Assembly: GCF_004194535.1 (NCBI RefSeq)
Contig: NZ_CP025781.1
Span: 868,001 to 932,000, forward strand
DNA from: Iodobacter fluviatilis
Lineage (GTDB): Bacteria > Pseudomonadota > Gammaproteobacteria > Burkholderiales > Chitinibacteraceae
Direction of reading: 5' to 3'
DNA: 64,000 bases
The position numbers and the translations under genes were made by a program. Under the pieces are notes generated by a model. That model worked only from the letters and a program-made list of their open reading frames with translations. It did not search any database and was not told the origin of the DNA. This document shows, in pieces, positions 7,539 to 24,315 of the stretch (positions within the stretch are counted from its first letter, which is position 1; every line of letters starts with the position of its first letter).

Positions 7539-8282
7539 TTACTTATGTAGCTCAACTACAAAATCGTAGTAGTCATTGCGAAAATAGGAATGTGTTAGCT
7601 CGCAAACCACTCCATTCTCTAGATATCCAACTCGAGTTAAATGCAACATTGCCTCGCCAGGTGCCACATCAACAAGTTGAGATAATGCTTCGGTTGCATT
7701 GATTGCTGCAATATTTTGTATCGCCCTTACAACAGATAAACGTACACTGCGCATATATTCATACAGAGAATCCCCAATAAGCGAGGGGTCTGGCACCAGT
7801 AAAAAAGGCAATGCTGTTTCCTCTAAGGCCATCACCACATCATTGGCGGTGCGCACGCGCTGTAAGCGACTGACTTTACAATTCGCAGCAAGATTAAGCT
7901 TGAGCTGCTCTTCTGCATTTGCCAGCGCCACCTCCCGTTTAAGCCAACGAGAGCCTGGCGTAAAGCCACGCTGCTTAAGCATCTCAGATAAATTGGTTAG
8001 CTTATTTAGTGGTTGCTCTAGTTTTGGCGTGATATAGGTGCCTGCACCATGACGCCGAATAATCAAGCCATCAGCTAAAAGTAAATCCAATGCCTTGCGT
8101 GCTGTCACCCTTGATACACCAAGCATTTCACATAAATTGCGCTCTGAAGGCAACGGATCATCCGCCAGCCAAAAACCAGCGTGAATAGCCGCAGCTAATT
8201 TATGCCCAAGCTGTAAATAAAGGGGTGTTGAGCTATCTGCGTCAGGGCGAAGCGCAAGTAGTTTTTGTTGTGGCAGCATCAT
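7539..8282 (-). CDS. GntR-family transcriptional regulator (HutC/NagR-like, UTRA domain)
   Basis: The protein has 247 residues. Residues 15-80 form a GntR winged helix: PLYLQLGHKLAAAI, then SERNLCEMLGVSRVTARKALDLL and GLIIRRHGAGTYI. Residues 95-245 form the UTRA effector-binding domain, ending in LTHSYFRNDYYDFVVEL. Members of this subfamily (NagR/YvoA, DasR, NagQ) respond to amino-sugar phosphates such as glucosamine-6-phosphate. It lies between the transporter operon and the kinase gene, all on the same strand, and is the obvious candidate regulator of both. Repeated TGGTATTA boxes upstream of the kinase are possible operators. Confidence 0.9.
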   Translation of the reverse strand: MMLPQQKLLALRPDADSSTPLYLQLGHKLAAAIHAGFWLADDPLPSERNLCEMLGVSRVTARKALDLLLADGLIIRRHGAGTYITPKLEQPLNKLTNLSEMLKQRGFTPGSRWLKREVALANAEEQLKLNLAANCKVSRLQRVRTANDVVMALEETALPFLLVPDPSLIGDSLYEYMRSVRLSVVRAIQNIAAINATEALSQLVDVAPGEAMLHLTRVGYLENGVVCELTHSYFRNDYYDFVVELHK

Positions 8283-8780
8283 CGATCTTCTTTACGGCGA
8301 TTTATTTTAGAAATAATGCGAACATTTTATAGTGATGAACGCGAGAAAATACCAATATCCAGCGTTTATGCCGATTTGAGCCAGCGCAGCTGCATTCACC
8401 CAAAAGACTTCATTCACTAAAAACGCTAAAACCACGGCAAATCCTGATATCGCTTCATCCGTAGGCTAAATGAACAGGGGCTTCAGGCTTTTAAAATTTT
8501 TCAAACGTGAGTGAAGCCTCGTTTTAGGCTCGGCCCAGCATCAATTACAGTTCAAAATAAAGGAGAGCTAAAAGCCCTCCTCTCGTTTTAGTGCTTTTTG
8601 CTAAGCTCTGTTGATATTTGATTTGCAACTTAACACAGCACTTAATCAAACGAAATAGTACACAGCATGCTACAAACTTAAGCTAGCCTATCAAAAAACG
8701 CGTAATAAATGAATAAATACAGTATTTTTGTCCTAAGTTATTTCCAATACTTACAGACCACTCACTTGCCTACTTAACAA
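8283..8780. other. Non-coding gap between kinase gene and gntR
   Basis: No ORF with coding character is seen. The stretch is AT-rich and has a weak GGAG/CTCC hairpin near 8560-8585. The segment near 8480-8535 carries two inverted GGCTTCA/TGAAGCC copies, which could be a degenerate mobile repeat. No tRNA or small RNA could be recognised. Confidence 0.4.
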
Positions 8781-9662
8781 TTAATGAGCCAGCGACTGAT
8801 AAATTAAAATTAATGCACCAGAACATGAGTCTTTTTGTGCTCGAGTGGTTGTCGCCAAAAAATCAGCAGAAATATAAGGCCGCATCGCTTCTGATAAGCC
8901 ACCACCACAAATTGCTAGCGGCAGATAGGGGTGCTTCGCCCGCAACGCTTTACCAATTGCTTCGATTTCTTGCCCAGCCTCAAGCAAAAATGCCCTTGCG
9001 TATTCATCACTCAAACCAAATTCAACCACAACAGGCGATAAAGAAGCACACTCACCCTGCTTCATTTTTCCCATCCAAGCAAAAACTTTGGCCTTGCTGC
9101 GACCCGTAATCGTGAGTAATTTTCGGCCAAAATCAGTGATTGGGCGACGACCATCGATGATGCGTTGCACATGGTTAATTGCTTTAAAGCCCAAAGATGC
9201 GCCGCTACCTTCGTCTGACGTTGGAAAGCCCCAGCCACCGACCTCTAGCCGTTGACCATCGGGTAGCCACGCTTCACCAATAGAGCCTGTGCCAATAGCG
9301 ATAATGCCGCCATATTGGCCATTGGTCGCACCTAGCAAAGTAGAAAAACCATCTGTTTCCACAATGATTTTGGCAAAGCCTGGATTTTTTTCCGCAAACT
9401 CAGCAGCCCACGCAGCGTTATGTACGCCCGACATCCCCAAGCCCAGCGCGCATTCTGCATAGTTTGGCGCTTGAATTCCTAGTGCGGCAAAACCAGCATT
9501 AATCGCTTGAGTAATATGCAGCCAAGCCTTATCAATACCCTGGCCCAAAGCCGATGCGGCTCCATCACTACGAATTTTCTCAACACCATCCAAGCCCGCA
9601 ATACAGATGCGAGTACCCGTGCCACCGCCATCTACACCAATTAGATATTGAATTTTGCTCAT
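8781..9662 (-). CDS. BadF/BadG/BcrA/BcrD-type sugar kinase, probable glucosamine or N-acetylglucosamine kinase
   Basis: The protein has about 293 residues and the ASKHA (actin-like ATPase) fold: phosphate-1 motif GVDGGGTGTR near the N-terminus, connecting and adenosine regions IIAIGTGSIGEAW, VGGWGFPTSDEGSGASLG, and AICGGGLSEAM near the C-terminus. Homologues include the glucosamine kinase GspK of vibrios and human-type GlcNAc kinases. The start ATG at 9662-9660 is preferred over GTG four codons upstream because AGGTGA lies eight bases before it. With the GntR/UTRA regulator and CUT1 importer it suggests entry of an amino sugar followed by phosphorylation in the cytoplasm. Substrate identity is an inference. 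Confidence 0.85.
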   Translation of the reverse strand: MSKIQYLIGVDGGGTGTRICIAGLDGVEKIRSDGAASALGQGIDKAWLHITQAINAGFAALGIQAPNYAECALGLGMSGVHNAAWAAEFAEKNPGFAKIIVETDGFSTLLGATNGQYGGIIAIGTGSIGEAWLPDGQRLEVGGWGFPTSDEGSGASLGFKAINHVQRIIDGRRPITDFGRKLLTITGRSKAKVFAWMGKMKQGECASLSPVVVEFGLSDEYARAFLLEAGQEIEAIGKALRAKHPYLPLAICGGGLSEAMRPYISADFLATTTRAQKDSCSGALILIYQSLAH

Positions 9663-11672: not shown

Positions 11673-12608
11673 ATGAAGTTGCAACAACTGCGCTATTTAG
11701 TGGAAGTGGCTAAACAAGGCCTGAATGTTTCAGAGGCCGCCGAAAAACTCCACACCTCTCAACCCGGCATTTCCAAGCAAATTCGCCTGCTAGAAGACGA
11801 ATTAGGCGTACAAATTTTTATTCGCAATGGGAAGCGCGTGGTAGATATTACCGCTCCAGGTAAAGAAATTTTACGCATCTCTGAACGCATGCTGATGCAA
11901 GCCCAAAACTTAAAACGAATCGGCGAAGATTTTGTTAATGTGGAAGGCGGCAGCCTGACTATTGCCACCACCCACACCCAAGCACGTTACGCCCTGCCAG
12001 AACCCATTCATAACTTTATGCTGCGTTACCCTAAAGTGCGCTTTTCAATTAAGCAGGGTAGCCCTACCCAGATTAGTGAAATGGTGGTTGAAGGCTCTGC
12101 CGATATTGCGATTGCCACAGAAGGGATCGATCATTATCCTGAGCTGGCCATGCTGGATTGCTACAACTGGAACCGTAGCATTGTGGTGCCGCTTGGCCAC
12201 CCGCTAACCACACTTGATCGACCAATCACACTGGAAGACGTGGCTGCTTGGCCTTTGATTACTTACGACTTTGCCTTTGCAGGCCGTAATAAAATTAACC
12301 AAGCTTTTGAAACAGCCAATCTCACTCCTAATGTTGTGCTGACAGCCATCGATTCAGACGTCATCAAGACTTACGTAGGGCTTGGCTTAGGCATCGGTAT
12401 TTTAGCTAGCATGGCCTTTGAAGCTGAGCGTGACCAACAGCTCGTTGCCATCGATGCGTCGCATCTGTTTGCCGATTCCACCACCCGCATCGGTATCCGC
12501 AAAGATGCCTATTTACGTGGCTATGCTTACGATTTTATTGAGCTATTTGCCCCGCACTTAAGCCGCAAAGTAGTGCAAGCCGCCTTGATGTGCGATACCG
12601 AAGAGTAA
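11673..12608 (+). CDS. cysB: CysB-family LysR-type regulator of sulfur assimilation
   Basis: About 311 residues. The N-terminal helix-turn-helix MKLQQLRYLVEVAKQGLNVSEAAEKLHTSQPGISKQIRLLE is diagnostic for CysB/Cbl, including the unusual LNVSEAA and TSQPGISKQI. The C-terminal periplasmic-binding-like domain contains the sulfate/acetylserine-binding region (TTHTQARYALP, KQGSPTQI). The ATG at 11673 is preferred over the far upstream ATG at 11559 because AAAGGA precedes it and family members start with MKLQQLRY. It is divergent from the TauE/SafE gene and near cysH, both expected targets. CysB activates sulfur genes with N-acetylserine and represses its own gene. Cbl is the alternative name. Confidence 0.9.
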   Translation: MKLQQLRYLVEVAKQGLNVSEAAEKLHTSQPGISKQIRLLEDELGVQIFIRNGKRVVDITAPGKEILRISERMLMQAQNLKRIGEDFVNVEGGSLTIATTHTQARYALPEPIHNFMLRYPKVRFSIKQGSPTQISEMVVEGSADIAIATEGIDHYPELAMLDCYNWNRSIVVPLGHPLTTLDRPITLEDVAAWPLITYDFAFAGRNKINQAFETANLTPNVVLTAIDSDVIKTYVGLGLGIGILASMAFEAERDQQLVAIDASHLFADSTTRIGIRKDAYLRGYAYDFIELFAPHLSRKVVQAALMCDTEE

Positions 12609-12611
12609 GCT

Positions 12612-12690
12612 TAGGGGCACGGCATGCCGTGCCTTATTAGCCAAACCAATAGCTTCAATGAAGCTCACATAGGGCACGCCGCGCCCCTAC
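12612..12690. repeat. Short REP-like unit with inverted GGCACGG/CCGTGCC arms
   Basis: The unit starts TAGGGGC and ends GCCCCTA. Inside are the palindrome GGCACGGCATGCCGTGCC (12616-12633) and GGGCACGCCGCGCCC (12672-12686). Similar sequences occur at 50089-50106 and twice within 61231-61450. It directly follows the cysB stop and may act as its terminator. Confidence 0.65.
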
Positions 12691-12701
12691 AATTTATATC
12701 T

Positions 12702-13511
12702 ATGTTCTCCTCCAGCGATAAAGCCGCCATCTACCTTGTGCTCTCTGATCATGAATCAGGCTCGCCCCGCCAATGGTATTTCTTAGAGCTGGCCGCACTA
12801 GAGGCAAAAGAGCCGCGCTCTAAACGGGCACGCTTTTGGATTTTTTTGCTGGCAAAGTTAGGACCAGCGTTGCTTACACCCGCATTGATTAAACGCGGCT
12901 TAAACGGCGCAATACTCTATCAAAACGCCGCCCAACATCGCTACCAACTCATCTGCCAGAGTTTAAACGACACTATCTTACTTAACGTTAGCCTATTAGC
13001 CCTGCTGGCGGGCTTTGAGCGGCTTACTGCATCGCTGCAGTTTTCCCTCTGGCTACTCGCTATTGGTGGGGTTGGCTGGCAAACTTGGCGAGCGCGCGCT
13101 ACTTTTATCGAGCCAGCACCACACAGCCTACCCGGCGCTGAAGCCAGCCTTGGTCTATATGGCTTGTTAATTGCAAAGGGCTTAGCGCCAACCCTTGCCA
13201 CACAGCTGCTTCATGACTTACGCAAACAGTCAGTACACGCTATCGCTTCGTTACAAAAACACCTACCTGAGCTCATCCCACCCACGGGCAGCCGCCATGC
13301 CAAATCGTTTAAAGCTTGCAGCTGGCTCATCCCCCTGCTGCCTTGCGCCTGGCTACTAGGCTTACTACCCGCTGATTGGGGCTGGATGATCTGCTGCATG
13401 CTGCTAATTGCAGCCACTTACCTTGTCAACCGACAATGGCAAACCCCCGCCTTAGTTGGCCTCGCCACGGTCTGTGTCTACGCACTGGCAAGATTAGTGC
13501 ATTGGTGGTGA
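12702..13511 (+). CDS. Uncharacterised multi-pass membrane protein
   Basis: About 269 residues from MFSSSDKAA; an upstream ATG at 12624 lies inside the REP-like repeat and is unlikely. There are two pairs of hydrophobic segments, near residues 95-140 (LLNVSLLALLAGF, LWLLAIGGVGW) and near 210-265 (WLIPLLPCAWLLGLLPADWGW and the last helix). A cytoplasmic-looking stretch lies between them. The protein is rich in Leu, Ala and Trp. No family was recognised. It stands alone between cysB and the GbsR-type regulator, with no overlap to either. Coding use looks like its neighbours, so the ORF is probably real. Confidence 0.6.
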   Translation: MFSSSDKAAIYLVLSDHESGSPRQWYFLELAALEAKEPRSKRARFWIFLLAKLGPALLTPALIKRGLNGAILYQNAAQHRYQLICQSLNDTILLNVSLLALLAGFERLTASLQFSLWLLAIGGVGWQTWRARATFIEPAPHSLPGAEASLGLYGLLIAKGLAPTLATQLLHDLRKQSVHAIASLQKHLPELIPPTGSRHAKSFKACSWLIPLLPCAWLLGLLPADWGWMICCMLLIAATYLVNRQWQTPALVGLATVCVYALARLVHWW

Positions 13512-13589
13512 GGAGCGATCCCTTAGCAACCAAGATTACCTATTAATTAGCAGCAAGCCGCAACCTCCCTCTGCCCATACATCTTTCAC

Positions 13590-13618
13590 TTGCATTTCAT
13601 CTACATTCGGAGTATAAT
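13590..13618 (+). promoter_or_regulatory. Sigma-70 promoter of the GbsR-type regulator gene
   Basis: TTGCAT at 13590-13595, a 17-base spacer and a perfect TATAAT at 13613-13618. The candidate operator begins on the last base of the -10 box, so a bound regulator would block transcription initiation. Confidence 0.75.
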
Positions 13619-13635
13619 TTCTCTAAAGACAGAAA
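13618..13635 (+). promoter_or_regulatory. Candidate GbsR-type operator, copy 1
   Basis: TTTCTCTAAAGACAGAAA, an inverted repeat TTTCT-N8-AGAAA, placed on the start region of the regulator gene. The same element, with two changes and a similar purine-rich tail (CAAAGGAAA here, CAAAAGAAA there), occurs at 14809-14826 upstream of the SDR-DoxX gene. Confidence 0.55.
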
Positions 13636-13648
13636 CAAAGGAAATGAC

Positions 13649-14197
13649 ATGCAGCTCAGCCCAACTATGGAGAAATACATCGCTCACTGGGGCGAAATGG
13701 GAACTAAATGGGGGGTGAACCGCAGTGTGGCGCAGATTCATGCGCTGCTGTTTTTGGTAAACCAGCCATTAACTGCTGAAGAAATCAGTGAAACCCTAAG
13801 CCTAGTGCGATCCAATGTCAGTAATAGCCTAAAGGAATTGCAAAGCTGGGGGCTTATCAAAAAAGATCAACCCATATTGGGCGAGCGGCGCGATTATTTT
13901 ATTGCCCTGCAAGATGTGTGGGAAATATTCCGTGTGATCACCGAAGAGCGTAAAAAACGCGAGCTAGATCCCACGCTCACCGTGCTCCGCCAGTGTGCGA
14001 TTGAAGCCGAAACCGATACGGCGATCGAAGCTGCCACCCGTGTAAAAATGGATCAAGTGCTGGAGTTTTTAGAAGTGCTGCTGCATGGCTACGACGACTT
14101 TAAAAACCTCCCGCCCAGCGTATTGCTAAAACTGTTAAAAATGGGCGGAAAAATCGGCCAGCTGGCGGCGATGTTTGGGAAAGATGAATCAGCATAG
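13649..14197 (+). CDS. GbsR/MarR-family transcriptional regulator
   Basis: This 182-residue protein begins YIAHWGEMGTKWGVNRSVAQIHALLFL, characteristic of the GbsR subgroup of MarR-like repressors. It continues with a winged helix (TAEEISETLSLVRSNVSNSLKELQSWGLI) and the wing LGERRDYF. The rest is helical and probably dimerises. It is the first gene of the 13649-20383 cluster and has its own strong promoter (13590-13618). A matching 18-base palindrome lies in its promoter and in front of the SDR-DoxX gene. It is therefore probably an autoregulated repressor of the operon. A MITE (14253-14342) separates it from the next gene. The effector is unknown. Confidence 0.85.
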   Translation: MQLSPTMEKYIAHWGEMGTKWGVNRSVAQIHALLFLVNQPLTAEEISETLSLVRSNVSNSLKELQSWGLIKKDQPILGERRDYFIALQDVWEIFRVITEERKKRELDPTLTVLRQCAIEAETDTAIEAATRVKMDQVLEFLEVLLHGYDDFKNLPPSVLLKLLKMGGKIGQLAAMFGKDESA

Positions 14198-14252
14198 TTT
14201 GGCACTGAGGATGGCGAAGCCCAACATTTTGATCATATCTCAAAGCTTCTTT

Positions 14253-14342
14253 TAGGGTCTGTTGACGTTTCATTCACGGCTGCGTTTGGCCCAGTTTTGG
14301 GGCTGAGCCGGAAAATGGCGAATGAAACGTCAACAGACCCTA
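14253..14342. mobile_element. MITE family A, copy A1 (90-bp internally deleted form)
   Basis: The ends TAGGGTCTGTTGACGTTTC and GAAACGTCAACAGACCCTA are perfect inverted repeats of more than 20 bases. The middle matches the left third of the 194-base copy A3 and then jumps to its right end. No coding capacity. It lies between the regulator and the DCC gene. Confidence 0.85.
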
Positions 14343-14403
14343 GCACCAAGCTCCTATTTTTTTGCCTCACTACATAGCAACGATTAGATACAAGGAATAG
14401 AAA

Positions 14404-14793
14404 ATGTCTGCCTACACTCTTTTTTATGACCATGCCTGCCCAATGTGCCGCCATGAAATGCTACGGCTTAAACGGCTGGATAAGCTGAATATCTTTACGC
14501 TGAGTAATATTAGCGCGCCTGATTTTGAGTTAACCACCGCCCCAGCCAGTATGGAAAAAATGCAGGCCCTGCTGCATATCCGCCGTGATGACGGGCTAGT
14601 TTTAATCGGAGTAGAAGCCATTGCCACGCTTTACCGTGCAATAGGCAAGGGCTGGTGGACTGGCCCGCTCATCTGGCCCGCAACGCGTGGTTTAGCCAGC
14701 TGGATTTACGCCCGCATCGCCCGCCATCGCTATGGCATTAGCGTTTTGCTTGGCTTTAACCCAGCCTGCCGCGATGGCGTTTGCAAACTGTAA
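14404..14793 (+). CDS. DCC-family (DUF393) thiol-disulfide oxidoreductase-like protein
   Basis: This 129-residue protein opens with TLFYDHACPMCRHEM, the DxxCxxC active-site motif that names the DCC family (YuxK-like). It is followed by the thioredoxin-like DDGLVLIGVEAIATLYRAIG strand-helix and a hydrophobic WPATRGLASWIYARIA segment. A further pair of cysteines sits near the C-terminus (FNPACRDGVC). The family is thought to act in thiol-disulfide exchange, but no substrate is established. It is the first structural gene after the regulator, and the regulator-like element at 14809 follows it. It may therefore form its own unit or be read from the regulator's promoter. Confidence 0.85.
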   Translation: MSAYTLFYDHACPMCRHEMLRLKRLDKLNIFTLSNISAPDFELTTAPASMEKMQALLHIRRDDGLVLIGVEAIATLYRAIGKGWWTGPLIWPATRGLASWIYARIARHRYGISVLLGFNPACRDGVCKL

Positions 14794-14808
14794 AAATTTA
14801 TGCATGTA

Positions 14809-14826
14809 TTTCTCTTAATACAGAAA
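14809..14826 (+). promoter_or_regulatory. Candidate GbsR-type operator, copy 2
   Basis: TTTCTCTTAATACAGAAA, differing from copy 1 at two positions and keeping the TTTCT-N8-AGAAA palindrome and the following CAAAAGAAA. It lies about 100 bases before the SDR-DoxX start. The promoter here is weaker than at copy 1 (TGTATTT in place of TATAAT). Confidence 0.5.
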
Positions 14827-14923
14827 CAAAAGAAAAAATGCCATCATCCAGCAAAAATTGCTCCGTCGTGACGTGCATTTATACGTTTAATCTCGCCCCA
14901 AAATTGTTTTAAGGTAAAACGCA

Positions 14924-16177
14924 ATGAACATCTTATTACTCGGTGGTAGCGGGCTAATCGGCAGCCGCTTAAGCAAGGCCTTATTAGCAGCGGGGCATAA
15001 CCTCACGCTACTTAGCCGCAGCGCAGGCAACGCGGCTGATTACACTTACATTCAGGCCGATTTTGCAGCGCTGCAAAGCGCTGATGACTGGCTACCCCAT
15101 CTGGCAGGCATTGATATTGTGATTAACGCGGTGGGCATTTTTGCTGAATCTGCAAGGCAAAAATTTGCCGATATTCATATTGCAGCACCACAGGCCTTAT
15201 TTGCCGCTTGCGAATTGACAGGTGTGCGGCGGGTGATTCAAGTCTCCGCACTAGGTGCAGCACCTAATGCACCTACAGCCTACTGGCGCAGCAAAGGTAT
15301 TGCCGATGCCAGCCTTGCAGCATCAAGTTTAGACTGGACGATTATCAGGCCGTCTTTGATTTATGCGCCGGAAGGGGCCAGCTGCCGAGTGTTTTGCAGC
15401 CTAGTCACGCTACCCTGTATTGCCAACTTAAGCGGCGCGGCAAATGTGCAGCCGGTGCATATCGATGACCTGATTACGCTGCTAGTCAAGCTTACTGTGC
15501 AAGCACTTGCTATCAAACAGGTGATCAACGCCATAGGGCCTGAAGCCATGCCACTCAGCCACTGGTGGCAAAGTTTACGGCTGGCAATGGGGCTAGCCCC
15601 AGCCTTTAGTATTCCACTTGCACCATGGCTACAAAATATGGCGGCCAGATGCTTACCAAGTGCCTTACTCACCACAGATAGCTTCACCATGCTGCGCAGC
15701 GGTAATAGCGCCGATTCGCAGCTCTTTGCCACCTTGCTGGGAAGAGCTCCACAGCCCGCCCTTCCTACTCAACAAGATAAAACCGAGGTAAAGCGTCATG
15801 CTCTGTTGGGCTGGCTGCTACCGCTCTTACAAATATCTGTCGCTCTAGTCTGGCTCTGTACCGCTGCAGTTTGCTTATGGGCGTGGCCGCGTGCAGAAAG
15901 CTATGCCTTGCTTGGCAAGACAGGTATTCCAAGCGCGTGGCAGCCGTTGCTTTTTTATGGATCAGTGGCAATGGACTCCCTGTTTGGTGTGCTTTGCCTA
16001 CTGGGAAAAGGCTGGCGTATGCAGCTCTACCTCGTATTGGCTTACAGCATCATTATTGCCTGCAAGCTGCCAGAGTTTCTGTGGCATCCCTTTGGCCCTT
16101 TGCTTAAAAACCTGCCGATCCTGGCACTGCTGATGCTGTTTGATCAGCTTGCATATCTTAAAAGGCCTGAGAAATGA
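14924..16177 (+). CDS. Atypical SDR epimerase fused to a DoxX-like membrane domain
   Basis: The protein has 417 residues. Residues 1-270 form an extended/atypical short-chain dehydrogenase: NAD(P)-binding LLLGGSGLIGSRL, then LIYAPEGASCRVF. There is no clear YxxxK; AYWRSKGIAD around residue 125 is the nearest match (Y-W-R-S-K). Residues 285-410 contain four hydrophobic helices ending MLFDQLAYLK, matching DoxX-like proteins that accompany such oxidoreductases. The last codons overlap the next gene by four bases (ATGA). It is probably a membrane-anchored oxidoreductase working on a lipophilic or quinone-like compound. The substrate is unknown. Confidence 0.82.
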   Translation: MNILLLGGSGLIGSRLSKALLAAGHNLTLLSRSAGNAADYTYIQADFAALQSADDWLPHLAGIDIVINAVGIFAESARQKFADIHIAAPQALFAACELTGVRRVIQVSALGAAPNAPTAYWRSKGIADASLAASSLDWTIIRPSLIYAPEGASCRVFCSLVTLPCIANLSGAANVQPVHIDDLITLLVKLTVQALAIKQVINAIGPEAMPLSHWWQSLRLAMGLAPAFSIPLAPWLQNMAARCLPSALLTTDSFTMLRSGNSADSQLFATLLGRAPQPALPTQQDKTEVKRHALLGWLLPLLQISVALVWLCTAAVCLWAWPRAESYALLGKTGIPSAWQPLLFYGSVAMDSLFGVLCLLGKGWRMQLYLVLAYSIIIACKLPEFLWHPFGPLLKNLPILALLMLFDQLAYLKRPEK

Positions 16178-16641
16178 ACTACTACCTTACCCTCAAGTTT
16201 CTGCATATTTTGTCCGCCACGCTGATGTTTGGTACTGGCCTTGGCACTGCGTTTTATATGTTTGTGACCAATCGCAGCGGCAATGTACAGGCGATAGCCG
16301 TGGTTTCCCGCTGGGTTGTGCGTGCGGACTGGTTATTTACCACGCCAGCAGTAATTTTTCAGCCAATTTCTGGGCTGCTGATGGCTTACTCCTCAGGCTA
16401 TCCACTGACCGCAAACTGGCTATGGATTTCTATGGCGCTCTACGCACTGGCAGGGGCTTGCTGGCTGCCCGTAGTGTGGATTCAGCTCAGAATGCGCGAT
16501 ATGGCACAAAGCGCAGCCCAAGATAACAGCGCCTTGCCAGCCAAATACTGGCGCTATGAGCGCATCTGGACGGCTCTGGGGTTCCCAGCGTTTATTAGCC
16601 TGATCGTGGTGTATTGGCTGATGGTGAATAAGCCTTTTTAA
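16174..16641 (+). CDS. DUF2269-family integral membrane protein
   Basis: This 155-residue protein has four helices. The N-terminal LTLKFLHILSATLMFGTGLGTAFYM with its membrane histidine, then RWVVRADWLFTTPAVIFQPISG, match the DUF2269 family. Its start overlaps the SDR-DoxX stop (ATGA), indicating translational coupling. The function of the family is unknown. His residues in helix 1, with the neighbouring DoxX-like and epimerase proteins, suggest a membrane redox assembly, which is inference only. Confidence 0.85.
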   Translation: MNYYLTLKFLHILSATLMFGTGLGTAFYMFVTNRSGNVQAIAVVSRWVVRADWLFTTPAVIFQPISGLLMAYSSGYPLTANWLWISMALYALAGACWLPVVWIQLRMRDMAQSAAQDNSALPAKYWRYERIWTALGFPAFISLIVVYWLMVNKPF

Positions 16642-16665
16642 ATTAACGCTTGCGAGGAGTAAGCC

Positions 16666-17173
16666 ATGACCATCGTTCTGTATTTATTAGTCATCCAAGG
16701 GCTGATGGGGGCGTTTGATACCCTCTACCACCATGAATTAACCGTGGCCTTGCCAAGCGAAAAATCCGCCCAGCACGAGCTCTGTTTACATGCGGTCCGC
16801 TTCGCTACTTTATGCAGGGGTATTTGCTGGCCTTGCTTGGTTTGAATGGCGTGGCCTGTGGCTATGGGGCTTATCGGCGCTGATTCTGATCGAAATTATA
16901 TTAACGCTTTGCGATTTTGTTGAAGAAGACAAAAGCCGCCTCTTACCCGCCACCGAGCGGGTCACCCACACCGTTTTAGCCATGAATGGCGGCGCGCTCT
17001 TTGGGCACTGGGCCATCAGTATTGCCCCAACTTGGGCCAGCCAGAGTAGTGATTTACACTTTGTAAGCTATGGCATCTTTAGCTGGGTATTAAGCCTGTT
17101 TGCGCTTGGCGTGGGTTTATCTGGCATTCGGGATGGATTTGCCAGCTGGAAAATTTTTAAGGAGGCACAGATC
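16666..17173 (+). pseudogene. Frameshifted four-helix membrane protein (partner of TIGR01777 epimerase)
   Basis: The ATG at 16666 has GAGGAG upstream and encodes MTIVLYLLVIQGLMGAFDTLYHHELT. After about 45 codons the frame runs into a stop near 16845. The expected continuation (LLYAGVFAGLAWFEW, then LCDFVEEDKSRLLPATERVTHT) lies one base over, so one extra base near 16795-16803 explains the break. The second part has three further helices and runs, without a stop, into the TIGR01777 gene. The DTLYHHEL and DFVEED...ERVTHT blocks are the family signature. Either this is a genuine lesion (others exist in this operon) or a sequencing error. Confidence 0.7.
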
Positions 17174-18109
17174 ATGACAAGCAATCCCTTTTTTAACCTG
17201 CCACAGCAACGCATTTTAATCACTGGCGGCACCGGCTTTATTGGCGCAGAGCTAACAGAGCAACTGCTGGCCGCCGGGCATAGCCTCTGCCTATACAGCC
17301 GTCATCCACAGGCCACCTATAGCCGTTTTCAGGGCAGAGTACGGGCTTTTTCTAGTTGGCAGGCGCTGTCATCCAATGAGGGATTTGACGCGGTTATCAA
17401 TTTAGCCGGTAGCCCAGTCGTTGGCCCGCGCTGGAGCGCTGCGCGAAAAAAAATCTTACTCGCCAGCCGCGTCGCCACAACCGAAGGCCTGCTGGGTTGG
17501 CTAGCCCGCGCTGCGCACAAACCCAGCGTACTCATTAATGGCTCGGCCATTGGCTATTACGGCTGCCGTGGCGATGAGCCGCTAGATGAAAATGCCGGCC
17601 CACAAGATGAATTTATGTCGCAACTTTGCCGCGAATGGGAGGCTGCGGCCTGCCAAGCAGAAGCCTTTGGTCTACGGGTAGTACGGTTGCGGCTTGGGCT
17701 CGTCTTTGGCCCAGGCGGCGCACTGCCTAAGCTCTTAATGCCTTACTACTTTGGTTTGGGTGGGCGCATGGGCGATGGCCGTCAGGTAATCAGCTGGATA
17801 CACCGAGATGATGTGCTGGCCATCATCTCCCAAGCACTCAGCGATAGCCGCTTTAATGGCGCTTACAACCTTACCGCCCCCGAAGCCCCCACTCAAGCCC
17901 AGTTTGCCCAAACAGCCGCTCGCCTACTGCACCGCCCAAGCTTCTTCACTACGCCTGCGTGGCTGATCGACGCACTGGCTGGTGAAATGGGCGCGCTGTT
18001 TACCAAGGGCCAGCGGATCATTCCTCAGCGCTTGCTTGATGCGGGCTACCGCTTTAAATACCCAGACTTAGTCAGCGCTTTACAAGCGCAGCTTAGTAAA
18101 TCCAAATGA
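17174..18109 (+). CDS. TIGR01777-family NAD(P)-dependent epimerase (SulA/YfcH-like)
   Basis: About 311 residues. The Rossmann motif ILITGGTGFIGAELTEQL opens the protein. The family blocks follow: FDAVINLAGSPVVGPRWSAARKK, INGSAIGYYGCRGDEPLDE, and VRLRLGLVFGPGGALPKL. The C-terminal DUF1731-like tail ends RLLDAGYRFKYPDLVSAL. The ATG at 17174 is chosen because a perfect AAGGAGG lies eight bases upstream and the length matches the family. The frame is also open upstream, which would fuse it to the membrane protein (from 16790). The physiological reaction of the family is not known. Confidence 0.88.
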   Translation: MTSNPFFNLPQQRILITGGTGFIGAELTEQLLAAGHSLCLYSRHPQATYSRFQGRVRAFSSWQALSSNEGFDAVINLAGSPVVGPRWSAARKKILLASRVATTEGLLGWLARAAHKPSVLINGSAIGYYGCRGDEPLDENAGPQDEFMSQLCREWEAAACQAEAFGLRVVRLRLGLVFGPGGALPKLLMPYYFGLGGRMGDGRQVISWIHRDDVLAIISQALSDSRFNGAYNLTAPEAPTQAQFAQTAARLLHRPSFFTTPAWLIDALAGEMGALFTKGQRIIPQRLLDAGYRFKYPDLVSALQAQLSKSK

Positions 18110-18134
18110 GCCAAGCGCAGATTGGTAAACAACA

Positions 18135-18671
18135 ATGAGCCAAGCCTCACTTTATCAGCAAGCCCTCGGCAGGGATTTTTCTTTACTGAGCCCCCTACTG
18201 CAAACCCTACACCTGAATGGGCAGCAGCTCTGGCAAGGGCAAGCCGATATAAAATGGGGTAAGCCACGGCTTATCCGTGGCCTACTTGGCTTGGCGATGC
18301 TCCTACGTATTTTGCCCGCAGAAGGGTGCAAAGTGCCCTGCCAAGTAAGAATTAGCCCAGATGCCCAAGGTGAAACTTGGCAACGCCGCTTTGCAAAAAA
18401 CCCAATGCAATCGCGCCAAAACTGGCGCAATGGCCAGCTTTGGGAGCAAATGGGCCCGTTGGCACTGCAATTACATAGCCAAGTTATAAACGGCCAGCTG
18501 CTACAAATCAGCCAACAAGCCCGCTACTTTGGCCTGCCGCTGCCCTTACACGTACAGGCTAAGGAATGGGCCATCGCTGATAAGATGTATTTTGACGTTG
18601 AAATAAGCTTCAAACGAGGCGGCATGATTTTGCATTACACCGGCGAGCTAAAACAGTCAGCCACCGTTTAA
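18135..18671 (+). CDS. DUF4166-domain protein
   Basis: This 178-residue protein matches the DUF4166 layout: SLYQQALGRDFSLLSPLLQTLHL at the start, GLLGLAMLLRILPAEGCKVPCQVRI, WQRRFAKNPMQSRQNW, and MYFDVEISFKRGGMILHYTGEL at the end. DUF4166 is often found next to, or fused to, saccharopine-dehydrogenase-like or epimerase proteins, as here. It lies 25 bases after the epimerase and 12 before the next gene. The start region repeats ATGAGCCAAGC, which also overlaps the previous stop codon, a small local duplication. No catalytic residues are known. Confidence 0.8.
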   Translation: MSQASLYQQALGRDFSLLSPLLQTLHLNGQQLWQGQADIKWGKPRLIRGLLGLAMLLRILPAEGCKVPCQVRISPDAQGETWQRRFAKNPMQSRQNWRNGQLWEQMGPLALQLHSQVINGQLLQISQQARYFGLPLPLHVQAKEWAIADKMYFDVEISFKRGGMILHYTGELKQSATV

Positions 18672-18683
18672 ACAAAGAAACCT

Positions 18684-19964
18684 ATGAAAAAACTATATCT
18701 ACTTGCCGGTAATGGCAGTGCAAGCGACTGGTGGGACGATGTTTTACCGCATTTTGAAGCCTATCTGCCACAGACCATAGAGCTGCCCAGCTTTGGCGAC
18801 AATACCGAGCCGCTGCCTGATTCCTTGCAAGCGCTATCGCTTGCGTTAGAAAAACAACTAGAACCTGGCCATGCTATTTTGGCCAGCGGCATTAGTGCGC
18901 TGCCCGTTTTGCATTTACTGGTGCGCCGCCCCGGCTTTTTTTCACGCGTGGTTTTGCTTTCACCGGTAGGCGTTTTACTTTGGAAACGGCGTTTACCTCG
19001 GCTAATGGCCGTGCCTGGTGTATTAGCACTGGTACACACCTTGCTCTCCCGCTACCCCAAACTGTTTCACCGCCAATATGCCGCCGCTGGCTTTTCACCC
19101 AACTATCAAAGAATCGCCAGCGGATATCGTCGCTGCCGCGCTTTTCAAGCTTACTTTGGCTGGGTACAGCCCGATTCGGCGCTGACTTTATTTGAGCAGA
19201 TCAATGATCCGATCGAGCTAGTCTGGGGAGCAAATGACAAGGTTGTCAGCCCCGCACACGCGGCAGCATGGGAGGCCGTGCTCTGCCGCGCCAATTTAAC
19301 CGTCACCTTGCAGCCAGGCTGGGGCCACTATCCTTTCTGGCAGCAGCCTGCCGCCTTTGTGCAATGGCTAGAGCAAGGCCCGCCAGGCTTTGCAGCGCAT
19401 ACCAAGGCTGGGCGTTTACAACTTGCCCGTCATGCGGGGCTGCCCGTGCCCGCTTTAATCAGCATTCAACACGCGAATGACCCTAATTTAACCGCCTTTT
19501 TACAAACGGATGCGCCACATGGCTGGGCCGTGCGCTCATCAGGAGACGACGAAGACGGCATTGATATTGCCAATGCCGGACGCCACCAGACTTTTCTGCG
19601 CGTTGCCAGCCGTGATGTCGCCGCGAAGAGTGCAGATATTCTAGCGAGTGGTGTTAGAACCGTTGCCGTACAAGCAATGATCGAGCCGGTTTTATCGGGG
19701 GTAGCCTTTGTTCGCCCGCTGGCCGCACATATTGAATGGGTAGAAGGCCATTTAGCAGCCTTAGTGGACGGCACAGCCAGCCCTCACACCATGCTGCTAT
19801 CTCGCATAGGTGGCGCATGGGGGCAGCAAGCCAAAATACTTAATCAGGTAGGCCCCGATCCGCGCCGCTTATGGGATTTTCTACAAAGTATTGTGGCAAC
19901 GTTTCACCAAGCACATCTAGATATCGAATGGGCATGGGATGGCCAGCAGTTCTGGATGTTGTAG
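18684..19964 (+). CDS. Alpha/beta hydrolase fused to PEP-synthase-like ATP-grasp domain (5' part of a gene split by an amber codon)
   Basis: The ORF has 426 residues. Residues 1-232 are an alpha/beta hydrolase with nucleophile region LASGISALPV, acid in LVWGANDKVVSP and His in PGWGHYPFW. Residues 240-426 are an ATP-grasp, pyruvate-phosphate-dikinase-type segment: WAVRSSGDDEDG, VAVQAMIEPVLSGVAF and DIEWAWDGQQFWML. It then stops at TAG (19962-19964). Reading through gives A-R-P-V-T-I-Y-P-W, so TAG stands where the conserved LQARP motif needs CAG. The following ORF continues in the same frame, so this was one long protein related to rifampin phosphotransferase and PEP synthase. The hydrolase-kinase fusion is unusual. 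Confidence 0.75.
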   Translation: MKKLYLLAGNGSASDWWDDVLPHFEAYLPQTIELPSFGDNTEPLPDSLQALSLALEKQLEPGHAILASGISALPVLHLLVRRPGFFSRVVLLSPVGVLLWKRRLPRLMAVPGVLALVHTLLSRYPKLFHRQYAAAGFSPNYQRIASGYRRCRAFQAYFGWVQPDSALTLFEQINDPIELVWGANDKVVSPAHAAAWEAVLCRANLTVTLQPGWGHYPFWQQPAAFVQWLEQGPPGFAAHTKAGRLQLARHAGLPVPALISIQHANDPNLTAFLQTDAPHGWAVRSSGDDEDGIDIANAGRHQTFLRVASRDVAAKSADILASGVRTVAVQAMIEPVLSGVAFVRPLAAHIEWVEGHLAALVDGTASPHTMLLSRIGGAWGQQAKILNQVGPDPRRLWDFLQSIVATFHQAHLDIEWAWDGQQFWML

Positions 19965-20383
19965 GCGCGGCCCGTGACGATTTACCCGTGGCAACGCTGG
20001 CTCACTTCGGCCAATATCGATGAAATCCTGCCCGAATCCCCCAGCCAGTGGATGGAAATGGCACAACGGGGAGCAGCTGCCAGCATTCCTCAGGTCTACG
20101 CCCGCTGGGACACGCGGGTGCTGGATGATAATGAGCCCTTTACGGCCATTTTTAATGATGCAAGCTATATCAATAGCGATCTATTCCTTGCCAGAATGGC
20201 CGACTGGGGCATGGATGGCCAGCAATATGCGCGTGAAATTGGCGGTAGCACGCCAGCCATGCCGAAGCGCCCTTGGCGCTGGCTTGCTTCCATACCGGTG
20301 TTTATCCGCATGCTATTTGCCAGCCGCCTTGCGATTAATCAGCTGGATAGTGGGCTGGCCCAGTGGCAGGCAGAATTAAATTA
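19965..20383 (+). pseudogene. 3' continuation of the hydrolase/PEP-synthase-like gene, truncated by IS200
   Basis: The frame of 18684-19964 continues after the TAG with ARPVTIYPWQRWLTSANIDEILPESPSQW. This resembles the start of the substrate-binding middle domain in rifampin-phosphotransferase-like enzymes, which typically begins with a TRANxGEVLPxPLSP block. A GTG at 19974 could restart translation. The frame runs to about 20383, where the IS200 hairpin array begins; the last 17 residues of the ORF (to 20435) are encoded by the IS. The rest of the middle domain and the swivelling phosphohistidine domain are missing. Function is therefore probably lost. Confidence 0.75.
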
Positions 20384-20457: not shown

Positions 20458-20889
20458 CTAGAGGCCTAGCTTCATTTGATCGTAACGATCATCCTCTTTT
20501 GCCTGATTACGAATGTAGGATCGAACCATCTCTTCATCCAATCCAACTGTCGATACAAAATATCCTCGAGCCCAAAATACCTCTCCCGTGAAATTTCGTT
20601 GCCGCCCACCAAACTGACGTGCAATTGAAATAGCACTCTTCCCTTTAATAAACCCAACGACATTCGATATCGAATGCTTTGGCGGCACGCTCAAGCACAT
20701 ATGCACGTGGTCAATCATCAAATGGCCCTCAACAACGAGGCACTCCCGTTGCTTTGCCAGCTCTCGGAATATCTCTCCGAGGTGCTTACGCAACGCGCCA
20801 TAAATCACTTTCTTGCGCCGCTTTGGAATAAACACGATGTGATATTTACAGTCCCATCTCGTGTGGCTCAAACTTTGATATTCTTTCAC
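20458..20889 (-). CDS. tnpA: IS200-type Y1 transposase
   Basis: About 143 residues from a GTG at 20889-20887. The sequence begins VKEYQSLSHTRWDCKYHIVFIPKRRKKVIYG. The HUH metal-binding motif is in GHLMIDHVHMCLSVPPKHS (H-V-H), and the catalytic tyrosine region is FWARGYFVSTVG. The GTG is preferred over an ATG 29 codons upstream because AGAAGG precedes it by nine bases and family members begin with xKEYQSLSHT. The protein looks intact, so the element may be mobile, using single-strand transposition. A stem-loop covering the ribosome binding region probably keeps expression low. Confidence 0.88.
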   Translation of the reverse strand: MKEYQSLSHTRWDCKYHIVFIPKRRKKVIYGALRKHLGEIFRELAKQRECLVVEGHLMIDHVHMCLSVPPKHSISNVVGFIKGKSAISIARQFGGRQRNFTGEVFWARGYFVSTVGLDEEMVRSYIRNQAKEDDRYDQMKLGL

Positions 20890-20929
20890 TTTGAAACGCC
20901 TTCTTTTGGTCGAGATAGAAGTTTCAAAG
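20889..20929 (-). promoter_or_regulatory. RBS-sequestering stem-loop in the IS200 leader
   Basis: On the minus strand CTTTGAAAC (20929-20921) and GTTTCAAAG (20897-20889) form a 9-base-pair stem. The last G of the stem is the G of the GTG start, and the AGAAGG ribosome site lies in the loop beside the stem. IS200 is known to repress transposase translation with such a leader hairpin. Confidence 0.65.
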
Positions 20930-20968
20930 CGACCGACGTATAGGTCAAACCTTGGTGAGTCCCCCAGC

Positions 20969-21535
20969 AGACACAAGATACCAAACCGAGTAGATATTGA
21001 CCAACGCCCTGATATTTTTGATAAAAGAAGTCGAGTTGGCGACTGGGAGGTAGATTTGGTTATTGGCGCAAATCACAAAGGAATGATCATTACCGCCAAT
21101 GAACGACGGACAGGGTTGTCGTTACAAAAATTCGTCCCGAGTAAGCATGCCGATATTATTGCTATAGGAATTATTCAATTACTTTCGCCGGTTAAAGAAT
21201 TTGTCCATACCATCACGATGCATAACGGTTTGGAGTTTGCAAAGCATGAATTCGTAAGCGCAGCACTTAAATCTGATGCTTATTTTGCAAAACCCTATTG
21301 CTCTTGGGAGCGTGGAAGTAATGAAAATACAAACCGACTTATTCGCCAATATTTCCCAAAGGGAAGTGGTTTTGAAAAAATAGATGAACAACAAATATTA
21401 AACTCAACAAACAAACTAAACCATCGGCCAAGAAAAATGCTTGGATACAAAACACCTGCTGAATTATTCGCAGAGGAAACGAAAATGAATTATAATGATG
21501 TGCTGTATTTAAATTCATTACATTTACTTTATTAA
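20969..21535 (+). pseudogene. IS30-family transposase, C-terminal fragment with mutated catalytic Asp
   Basis: The frame from about 20969 encodes the IS30 catalytic core: IPNRVDIDQRPDIFDKRSRVGDWEVDLVIG carries the first Asp, SWERGSNENTNRLIRQYFP carries the Glu, and NHRPRKMLGYKTPAELF is the usual end. The second catalytic Asp is replaced by His (TMHNGLEF where TSDNGxEF is normal). The helix-turn-helix N-terminal half is absent, cut off at the IS200 boundary. The copy is inactive and older than, or damaged by, the IS200 insertion. It marks the edge of an AT-rich island. Confidence 0.8.
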
Positions 21536-21975: not shown

Positions 21976-24315
21976 ATGATAAGGCTTGATATTTTGCTAC
22001 GATTTTGTCGAATTTTTTATATTTCTTTATTTTTTTCTTTGGGATCAGGAACTGCACATGCGTTTAAAATTGATACGCATATTTGGGTAGGGCAACAGGT
22101 TATTAATGATTTAGCAGACGATGGGAAAATTACGATTAATCTTCGTGGTAAGCCCATAGTGCTTGATGTTCCTGCAGATGTAAAAGCAGCCATTCTTGCT
22201 AATAAAACTGAATATCTTTTAGGCAATATGGGGCCTGATTCAGCGCCTGATTTAATGGTTGGTCAGACAATTGTTCATCCTGGGGTTGAGGGGGCATGGA
22301 GCACAAGTGATTGGTTACAGTTTCTATTACAAAGCTCAAAAAACAACCCTGCAGGTAAATCTTATACCTATGGTTATTTAGGCCATGCTGCTGCAGATAT
22401 GTTTGCACATACTTATGTGAATCAGTATGCAGGAGACGTGTTCAACTTGGCGGATGAAACTCTTGTGGAGCAACGCCATATTGCTTTAGAAGGATTTATC
22501 AGTAAATTGACGCCGCCTCTGCTTGATCATACGGGAAGGCCATTAGGAAGTGTGTCGGCTTTAGTTAAGCCTACGGATGCATTTGGGACTTTTGTCCGCG
22601 ATACACTTGTAATGAATGATACTGTTCAAAATCAGTATAACCGCAGTCGCTATGGGCGTCATTTATCTGCATATTATGAATATCGCAGGACGATTGATGC
22701 TATTGCTCAGGATCCTTTTTGGCAGAAATTAGATGTAGAGGTTTTAAAATTATTTTCTTCTTCAGCAGGGCTTCCTTTATCAACAAAAAATGCACAAATT
22801 ATTATAGAGAAAACTAATCAGGTTATTTCTAAATTACAGCGTGGTGAGGATAATATTCAAGCACAGGCTAATGAAATAAATGCGATTGTTCAGAGATTAG
22901 ACAATAATATTTTTTTAGAGGTAAAGGGGCTTACTCAGCAACTTTTAAGTCTGGAAGATGAGATTCTTAGGATACATATTCAGATTAGTAATGAAGAAAG
23001 TAAAATTCGCCGTACAAGTACTTGCCCAGGTTGGTGGGATCCTGGTGGGAAATATTTGTGTAATAAATTAAATGATGAAATTGATAGCTTGAATCAGAAA
23101 TTATGGAGCGCTGTTGGGTCTTTGCAGCAGGGTAAAAATAAAAAAAGAGAAGAGCTATTACAGACAGTAGTTGCTTTACGCGATGCAACTAAAAAAACAG
23201 AGCAATTAATGATTATTATCACCAATGCGCATATTGATTTTGGTCAGCGTATGGGGAAATCCACTTCGCCTATTCAGAGCGCATTGATTGGGTGGCGGAA
23301 TGATATTGATATTGCGATGAGGGAGTATGTTAAAGCAACAAGCCAATCGTTGTTAAACACGACCGAGCCTTCTGGGAGTGCATTTGCGCCTATGAGACAG
23401 TGGTTTGGGTGTTATCACTTAAGTATTATTGGCCTAGCACAAGAGCTATCTGGCTGTGAAATACGTGATGGAGCGATGAAAGCTTTTTGGGCTGTAGATC
23501 GCGTACTTAAATTGGCTGATGATTTGAGCTTTGCGGGGGCGCTGTTAAATCTTCCATCGCCTTCGGATATTCGTTCTTGGCGTGATGCGCAGTTGCAGCG
23601 TGCTAAAGAGCGATTACTCTCTGAAGTTGCTCAAAGGGCTGAGGATTTATTACCAGCAGAAGCTCGAGATATTTTGCAGTTATTTAGCCAGGACATGAAC
23701 GATCAGGCTTTAAATTCCTATTTTTCAAAGCCAGAAAATGGCATTAGCAAAGGATTATTAAGTATTCCAGATATTTCGGCACGGGTACGTGCAGAAATGA
23801 AAATTAAAAATAATGCCTTTGATCCCCAGAAGTATGCTGTCGTAAGTAATGCCATCACTTTAGCAAAGTTATCTTTGCTTGATAAAGAGGGCTTGATTAG
23901 ATTTGCGAAAATTGCAAGTGCACCGCTGAATATAAATGGTAAATCGGTATTTTTTGAAACTGATAATATACTGGCGGGGTCATTAACTAGTATTGATGGC
24001 AACCATCAATGGATGCCTACCCCACCCCCTCGACCTAATGCGATGGGTGTGCCATATACAGCGTCTGCTTCATATGCAAGCCCCGCTGGTTTTGTGCCAT
24101 GGCGTAAAGAGGTAAGGGAGTCTTTATTTCGTTCTATGTTTATTGGCCCTTTATCACCAGGGATAGATGCACCAAATGAGATAGGTTTCCCTTCCTTGTT
24201 AAAGGCTGATTATCCATATCGTTCATGTTCATCGAACCCATTTCCTGATGACCCTTTAGATAATAAATGTTTAATTGTTGGTATTTTGCCAATATTAATT
24301 ATGTTGCTGGATTGA
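21976..24315 (+). CDS. Large secreted zinc-dependent phospholipase C/S1-P1 nuclease-like protein
   Basis: This 779-residue protein has a signal peptide ending near GTAHA. The mature N-terminus FKIDTHIWVGQQVI, then YLLGNMGPDSAPDLM and YTYGYLGHAAADMFAHTYVNQYAGD, carry the His/Asp ligands of the zinc-dependent phospholipase C family (H of THIW, GPDxxPD, and the H-N4-D-N3-H set in GHAAADMFAH). Residues about 270-440 are strongly helical and probably coiled coil (repeated QxxEIxxI and KKREELLQTVVALRD). The C-terminal 250 residues are not recognised, and a hydrophobic tail (LIVGILPILIMLL) ends the protein. It is far longer than typical phospholipases. The AT-rich codon use contrasts with both flanks, suggesting transfer. 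A role as a membrane-attacking toxin or nutrient enzyme is an inference. Confidence 0.7.
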   Translation: MIRLDILLRFCRIFYISLFFSLGSGTAHAFKIDTHIWVGQQVINDLADDGKITINLRGKPIVLDVPADVKAAILANKTEYLLGNMGPDSAPDLMVGQTIVHPGVEGAWSTSDWLQFLLQSSKNNPAGKSYTYGYLGHAAADMFAHTYVNQYAGDVFNLADETLVEQRHIALEGFISKLTPPLLDHTGRPLGSVSALVKPTDAFGTFVRDTLVMNDTVQNQYNRSRYGRHLSAYYEYRRTIDAIAQDPFWQKLDVEVLKLFSSSAGLPLSTKNAQIIIEKTNQVISKLQRGEDNIQAQANEINAIVQRLDNNIFLEVKGLTQQLLSLEDEILRIHIQISNEESKIRRTSTCPGWWDPGGKYLCNKLNDEIDSLNQKLWSAVGSLQQGKNKKREELLQTVVALRDATKKTEQLMIIITNAHIDFGQRMGKSTSPIQSALIGWRNDIDIAMREYVKATSQSLLNTTEPSGSAFAPMRQWFGCYHLSIIGLAQELSGCEIRDGAMKAFWAVDRVLKLADDLSFAGALLNLPSPSDIRSWRDAQLQRAKERLLSEVAQRAEDLLPAEARDILQLFSQDMNDQALNSYFSKPENGISKGLLSIPDISARVRAEMKIKNNAFDPQKYAVVSNAITLAKLSLLDKEGLIRFAKIASAPLNINGKSVFFETDNILAGSLTSIDGNHQWMPTPPPRPNAMGVPYTASASYASPAGFVPWRKEVRESLFRSMFIGPLSPGIDAPNEIGFPSLLKADYPYRSCSSNPFPDDPLDNKCLIVGILPILIMLLD

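Follow-up and report, generated by a model that had tools for sequence, protein, structure and literature searches.

A conserved bacterial gene cluster with a GbsR-type regulator and a putative shared operator

In a 64,000-nucleotide stretch of the Iodobacter fluviatilis genome (the window; contig NZ_CP025781.1, positions 868,001 to 932,000, from a nearly complete genome of 4.59 Mb) lies a conserved gene cluster, headed by the gene for a GbsR-type regulator, which together with a palindromic putative operator appears to form a dedicated GbsR regulon, one that stands apart from the CioR/CydE branch of the family and its cytochrome-bd genes. Its likeliest job, which we hold with slightly better than even confidence, is the redox modification of a lipophilic compound held in the membrane. 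The genes occupy the + strand from 13649 to about 20383 in the order gbsR (13649–14197; a GbsR-type MarR regulator of 182 amino acids, PF12802 E = 2.4e-9, over the cut-off), dcc (14404–14793; a DCC1-like thiol-disulfide oxidoreductase, PF04134 E = 1e-20), an SDR with a C-terminal DoxX_3 membrane domain (SDR-DoxX, 14924–16177; PF13781 E = 1.2e-25), the four-helix membrane protein DUF2269 (16174–16641; PF10027 E = 1.4e-62), a membrane domain labeled MEM (16666–17173), the SDR-type oxidoreductase TIGR01777 with DUF1731 at its end (17174–18109; 313.4 bits against a cut-off of 207.35), DUF4166 (18135–18671; 66 bits against a cut-off of 23) and the remnant of a hydrolase-like/ATP-grasp/phospho-His protein labeled HYD (18684–20383). 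Genes were called by script as the longest open frames, and some of the opposite-strand frames are spurious. The profile matches place all the families named in a first-pass annotation of this DNA where it had put them, and the regulated operon that it proposed, including an ATGA overlap between two genes (16174–16177, where the ATG of DUF2269 at 16174 overlaps the SDR-DoxX stop at 16175–16177), is borne out at the sequence level and extended by the conserved putative operator and the probable regulon described below.

The gene cluster is real and conserved. The whole order is present in five of the relatives fetched (L067, L068, L036, L038 and L039, with the DUF4166 of L036 possibly damaged near its end), which supplies the intact versions that the first-pass annotation had proposed to look for; L072 lacks DUF4166 only, and shorter versions are common. 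Among 33 loci of high-ranking SDR-DoxX matches from the order, DUF2269 lay just downstream in 26 and gbsR was present in 15, while in 80 named SDR-DoxX loci from GTDB genomes DUF2269 followed within 501 nucleotides (nt) in every case and gbsR accompanied it in 13. Co-localization was assessed in 250 genomes of the order, evenly drawn, 60 of which held a total of 81 GbsR matches. SDR-DoxX (here the 48 best matches), DUF2269 or DUF4166 was found within 6 kb of all 19 best GbsR matches, compared to 4 of the remaining 62. Furthermore, 21 of the 59 DUF2269 genes over the curated cut-off (66 matches, from which 7 under it were dropped) and 8 of the 23 DUF4166 genes lay within 6 kb of gbsR, against 0.15 and 0.09 by chance in an assumed 4.5-Mb genome (~140-fold and ~90-fold, respectively). 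HYD was found in 5 of the 250 genomes, adjoining MEM-TIGR01777 and DUF4166 in all five. At the class level, for which 18 of 30 GbsR matches plus two further host regions were fetched, 13 of the 18 GbsR loci opened contained SDR-DoxX, DUF2269 or MEM-TIGR01777; in the remainder gbsR was followed by a DCC gene in one (L163), by cytochrome bd genes in one (L166) and by neither in three.

The second line of evidence is a palindrome upstream of gbsR, with the consensus TTTCTGTNNNNACAGAAA and the form TTTCTGT-N4-ACAGAAA. The pattern TTTC-N10-GAAA occurred in 43 of 47 gbsR upstream regions (two of which, L147 and L166, belong to cytochrome-bd operons), against a mean of 0.095 and a maximum of 2 in 200 shuffles that preserved base composition only. 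For the 48 gbsR loci with module genes, the site stands upstream of gbsR in 44, and two or more sites are present in 35 when counted over whole loci. Among the 80 named loci, a site is carried by all 13 that have gbsR and by none of the 67 that lack it. In the window, putative operator 1 (TTTCTCTAAAGACAGAAA, 13618–13635) reaches into the end of the −10 box of a predicted + strand promoter (13590–13618; TTGCAT at 13590–13595, a 17-nt spacer and TATAAT at 13613–13618), a position that would suit a repressor, and putative operator 2 (TTTCTCTTAATACAGAAA, 14809–14826) lies before SDR-DoxX. The palindrome thus appears to sit at the regulator's own promoter, and GbsR very probably binds it.

The sites found across genomes outline the probable regulon. 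A slightly wider pattern gave four sites in the host genome and none for its reversed control: two in this operon, one before cioR-cydAB and one within an acyltransferase gene. A search of the 250 genomes with the exact pattern gave 41 sites in 27 genomes (reversed control: 3 in 3 genomes), of which 32 lay at most 2 kb from a GbsR match; these distances were taken to 33 of the 81 GbsR matches, and the omitted 48 could only increase the number of nearby sites. Five of the 41 sites precede module genes apart from gbsR, with a site before MEM-TIGR01777-DUF4166-HYD on another contig of G099 (L176; starting 61 nt ahead of the ATG), before a lone DUF4166 gene in G097 (L173; ATG ~31 nt downstream of the site) and before a solitary SDR in G168 (L215); the remaining two are in an SDR/DUF2269/DCC locus of G202 (L214) in which no GbsR was detected. 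Four of the 41 are apparently chance occurrences, three within unrelated coding frames (L216, L217 and L219) and the fourth in a genome that gave no GbsR match (L218).

The window regulator has the winged helix and sequence of a GbsR-type MarR protein, has its closest counterparts in Iodobacter (97% identity to L067) and scores best in NCBIfam with CudC, a regulator linked to choline, at 43.6 bits where the cut-off is 218. It shares its family with the osmostress regulators GbsR, OpuAR and OpcR; however, no choline, betaine or Opu genes were seen in the module clusters. Within the same family, CioR and CydE repress cytochrome bd, and autorepression is reported for both in the available text of the two studies (PMC11837568, PMC6096048). 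Their operons (Chromobacterium violaceum cioRAB and Alishewanella cydEAB) also start with a GbsR-type gene and carry TTTC-N10-GAAA at the promoter, and CydE footprint site 1, given as TATTTCAGAAATTTCTGAAAGTTCA in the accessible part of the report (PMC6096048), has the palindrome layout of the module operator, although the second CydE footprint does not. The host carries a second GbsR of this CioR/CydE type directly before its cytochrome bd genes (PF01654, PF02322; L147 8050–11570, host C1 3448049 onward), with a palindrome of its own (TTTCAGTAATTACTGAAA). In contrast, the window operon and the other module operons lack cydAB. When 76 GbsR proteins were placed in a tree, the 12 rows linked to cydAB grouped as one clade (support 100/99) with no module row inside, and the window protein fell outside it; the module rows did not form one clade, and about nine changes would be needed. 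At palindrome positions 5 and 14, all 9 cyd sites read A/T, and 38 of the 44 module sites read T/A (the others being 3 A/A, 2 T/T and 1 A/T). The residue pair that follows SNVS is MG, LG or MS in the 10 readable cyd rows and TS or NS in all 47 readable module rows. CioR and the module GbsR are a paralog pair in which the site and the recognition helix have changed together, and they offer a case for examining how regulons part ways once a gene has been duplicated. The contexts listed in the available portion of a GbsR survey are betaine synthesis, Opu, cytochrome bd and other transporters, with 73 of 179 genes unassigned (PMC6207618), and the module supplies a context for part of this remainder.

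Features of the individual proteins bear on what the module might do. CxxC was present in 40 of 40 DCC matches of the loci, and DUF2269 has an invariant His near its start. DUF2269 resembles the HemJ and PuuD membrane domains in being a small helical membrane protein, and a distant similarity to the PuuD membrane domain is stated in the accessible part of one paper (PMC4562309). Its full-length similarity to HemJ (TIGR00701) is weak (19.1 bits, far under the cut-off of 138.05; hhalign probability 19.6%), and in the host a separate match to HemJ scores higher (125.8 bits). The "membrane protein" and TIGR01777 of the first-pass annotation are both present, but not as two separate proteins: they are one fused protein of 480 amino acids in L067 and L068, and the MEM part is frameshifted in the window. 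MEM has no Pfam match, and D18, H23, E24, E38, H42, E76, D83, E87, E97 and H101 are invariant in 20 of 20 sequences; it is possibly a metal-dependent membrane enzyme, with a metal site formed by this Asp/Glu/His cluster. A free-standing MEM without TIGR01777 is found divergent beside the SDR-DoxX/DUF2269 pair in Massilia and relatives (L073, L077, L078, L083–L085, L088, L094, L096, L108 and L117), and these loci often also hold a ~166-amino-acid membrane protein without a Pfam match.

A predicted model of the L068 homolog of DUF4166, together with its matches in the PDB, gives an up-and-down beta barrel, so that the family is predicted to be a calycin barrel of the lipid-binding type. Its likeness to the calycin barrels (nitrobindin, fatty-acid-binding proteins and the OlmO/OssO spirocyclases) is one of predicted fold, since comparing the DUF4166 sequence with the PDB gave nothing significant (best E = 0.51), and, unlike nitrobindin, no invariant or nearly invariant His was found among 27 DUF4166 sequences, which speaks against a heme ligand of the nitrobindin kind. 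Among 14 control genomes Bacillus subtilis gave the sole DUF4166 match, and thus a tractable model organism holds a family member. HYD measures 806–846 amino acids in six relatives, and the intact L068 protein combines a BioH-like front with PPDK_N (43.3 bits) and PEP-utilizer (30.8 bits) domains, both over cut-off. These two domains, and weak matches to phosphoenolpyruvate (PEP) synthase and the prodigiosin ligase PigC, link it to PEP synthase and PigC-type enzymes; however, it differs in its extra hydrolase-like front, in having no Pfam match for the C-terminal PEP/pyruvate barrel of PEP synthase (L068) and in scores far under the NCBIfam cut-offs (at most 50.5 bits for PEP synthase models that require 598 or more).

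Variant loci add further partners. SRPBCC genes occur in L043, L039 and L054, and a class I methyltransferase is present in L043 and adjoins the GbsR genes of L185 and L186. A saccharopine-dehydrogenase-like reductase was recognized by a Pfam match in L052, and its tblastn relatives lie beside DUF4166 (L174, L177 and L178) or DUF2269 (L182 and L183). L167 holds a variant operon that lacks SDR-DoxX, and there a macrolide-type glycosyltransferase (8268–9527) comes after DUF4166. Taken with the DUF4166 barrel, these accessory genes fit the modification of a lipophilic compound, without proving or naming one. A different switch accompanies a similar gene set in L058–L062 and L132, where an AraC-type regulator, the first half of which resembles membrane helices, is followed by SDR and DUF4166, with DUF2269 in several.

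The gene set and its conservation, the palindrome, the content of the regulon, the predicted folds and the invariant residues come from computation; for GbsR binding and repression at the palindrome, the signal, the substrate, the reaction and the metal site, we infer the following. GbsR would be an autorepressor bound over the −10 region of its own promoter, and most operons would have it on a second copy of the palindrome further in as well; some signal would release it, upon which the cell would make a membrane-attached set of proteins. In this set DCC would be the thiol-redox protein, SDR-DoxX and MEM-TIGR01777 two NAD(P)-binding Rossmann enzymes each with a membrane domain, and DUF2269 a four-helix membrane protein with its invariant His, while the DUF4166 barrel may hold a lipophilic intermediate and MEM may be the catalytic membrane part, possibly at its metal site. 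In some genomes HYD would add an ATP-grasp/phospho-His enzyme with a hydrolase-like front. A more specific version, which we consider unlikely as it stands, is an inducible membrane enzyme system in which MEM is a new metalloenzyme family with two half-sites, in each of which ExxxH comes after an acidic/His motif, and receives reducing power from its fused TIGR01777 reductase and from SDR-DoxX/DUF2269, with DUF4166 as substrate carrier and HYD as ATP-dependent activator, under a paralog of the cytochrome-bd repressor whose operator would depart from the cytochrome-bd type mainly by a swap at one symmetric base-pair position.

Several observations weigh against redox modification of a lipophilic compound under GbsR control. 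No gbsR lies in the locus of 67 of the 80 named SDR-DoxX/DUF2269 pairs, 38 of the 59 DUF2269 and 15 of the 23 DUF4166 genes of the sample are away from gbsR, and the module varies, with HYD and DUF4166 often missing and an AraC-type regulator in other genomes. The palindrome is still present at 7 of 8 GbsR loci without module genes (two of them with a methyltransferase gene), as expected from autoregulation, and the presumed nucleophile position of the HYD front, picked by eye, is Ser in only 3 of 8 sequences and Asn in 5 of 8. That the genes are grouped by chance is nevertheless very improbable: the families do also occur apart, 23 of the 59 DUF2269 genes having none of the 48 best SDR-DoxX matches within 2 kb, but the co-localization counts far above expectation and the shared operator, which recurs before module genes distant from gbsR, exclude it, and the homologs are not randomly scattered as the first-pass annotation had envisaged for a meaningless grouping. 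DoxX proteins are quinone-linked, and a rather doubtful alternative is a respiratory or redox-stress module, in which SDR-DoxX and DUF2269 would hand electrons from NAD(P)H on to quinone or heme, DCC would repair thiols and GbsR would sense a stress like that of CioR/CydE. The cytochrome-bd repression by sister GbsR proteins with the same operator layout, the several membrane and redox parts of the set, and the HemJ and PuuD likenesses of DUF2269 all favor it, although the HemJ similarity falls far short of its cut-off and is weak in hhalign. It leaves the DUF4166 barrel without an invariant His unexplained and does not account for the SRPBCC, methyltransferase and glycosyltransferase partners or the ATP-grasp/His enzyme.

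The window copy itself is broken and thus shows no working pathway in this strain. MEM carries a one-base frameshift, and HYD, the "giant" of the first-pass annotation, was assigned to the right family but is not intact here: an in-frame TAG stands at 19962–19964, PPDK_N scores 25.4 bits (under the cut-off of 27), the PEP-utilizer His domain is lost and homology stops near 20380 by an IS200-type (Y1) transposase gene (20458–20976, − strand; PF01797 E = 2.1e-37). A search of the host genome did not recover the missing end, the only match being one of 33% over 55 amino acids. The distal half from MEM onward is decaying in this strain, and full activity is therefore probably lost. In L070, which is near Iodobacter, most of MEM-TIGR01777, DUF4166 and HYD is likewise gone (11852–13848), leaving a 112-amino-acid piece of the HYD end, and hence the distal half decays repeatedly. 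It is a serious possibility, to which we give a little less than even weight, that the operon was functional in an ancestor and persists here only as a residual relic, its distal half being lost; this concerns the strain and not the system, and is compatible with the function favored above. Yet gbsR through DUF2269 remain open with both operator sites kept, and the first half alone is carried by many genomes and so may function by itself. Between gbsR and dcc lies a 90-nt repeat (14253–14342) with perfect 23-nt inverted ends, to which a search of the host genome reports 130 matches when ends and parts are tallied separately, ~40 of them long and many of these apparently from copies near 250–270 nt; it is perhaps a short internal-deletion copy of a family resembling miniature inverted-repeat transposable elements (MITEs).

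The first-pass annotation called the operon undescribed, which agrees with a literature search restricted to open-license papers: no description of it was found, nor any paper naming two or more of the families together or treating DUF4166, and the occurrences of DUF2269 found, in the accessible parts of those papers, were not about this operon. As a GbsR regulon the gene set is, as far as these searches go, new. It ties DUF2269, DUF4166, TIGR01777 and the unnamed MEM, as well as DCC and DoxX_3, into one probable regulon with a readable operator, and because a repressor with its very probable DNA site defines a set of membrane redox and lipid-binding-like proteins that many bacteria have in common, the families can be studied as one switchable unit. 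Several "function unknown" labels thereby become a single testable question, namely what the membrane gains on derepression. The regulation is testable at once, whereas the chemistry is a reasoned guess.

Outside the operon, the upstream gene at 12624–13511 encodes a membrane protein without a Pfam match and is kept together with the preceding LysR gene in the Iodobacter-like loci L067, L068 and L070. Further downstream in the window, a domain resembling zinc-dependent phospholipase C (PF00882, E = 4.3e-7) is part of the 779-amino-acid protein encoded at 21976–24315.

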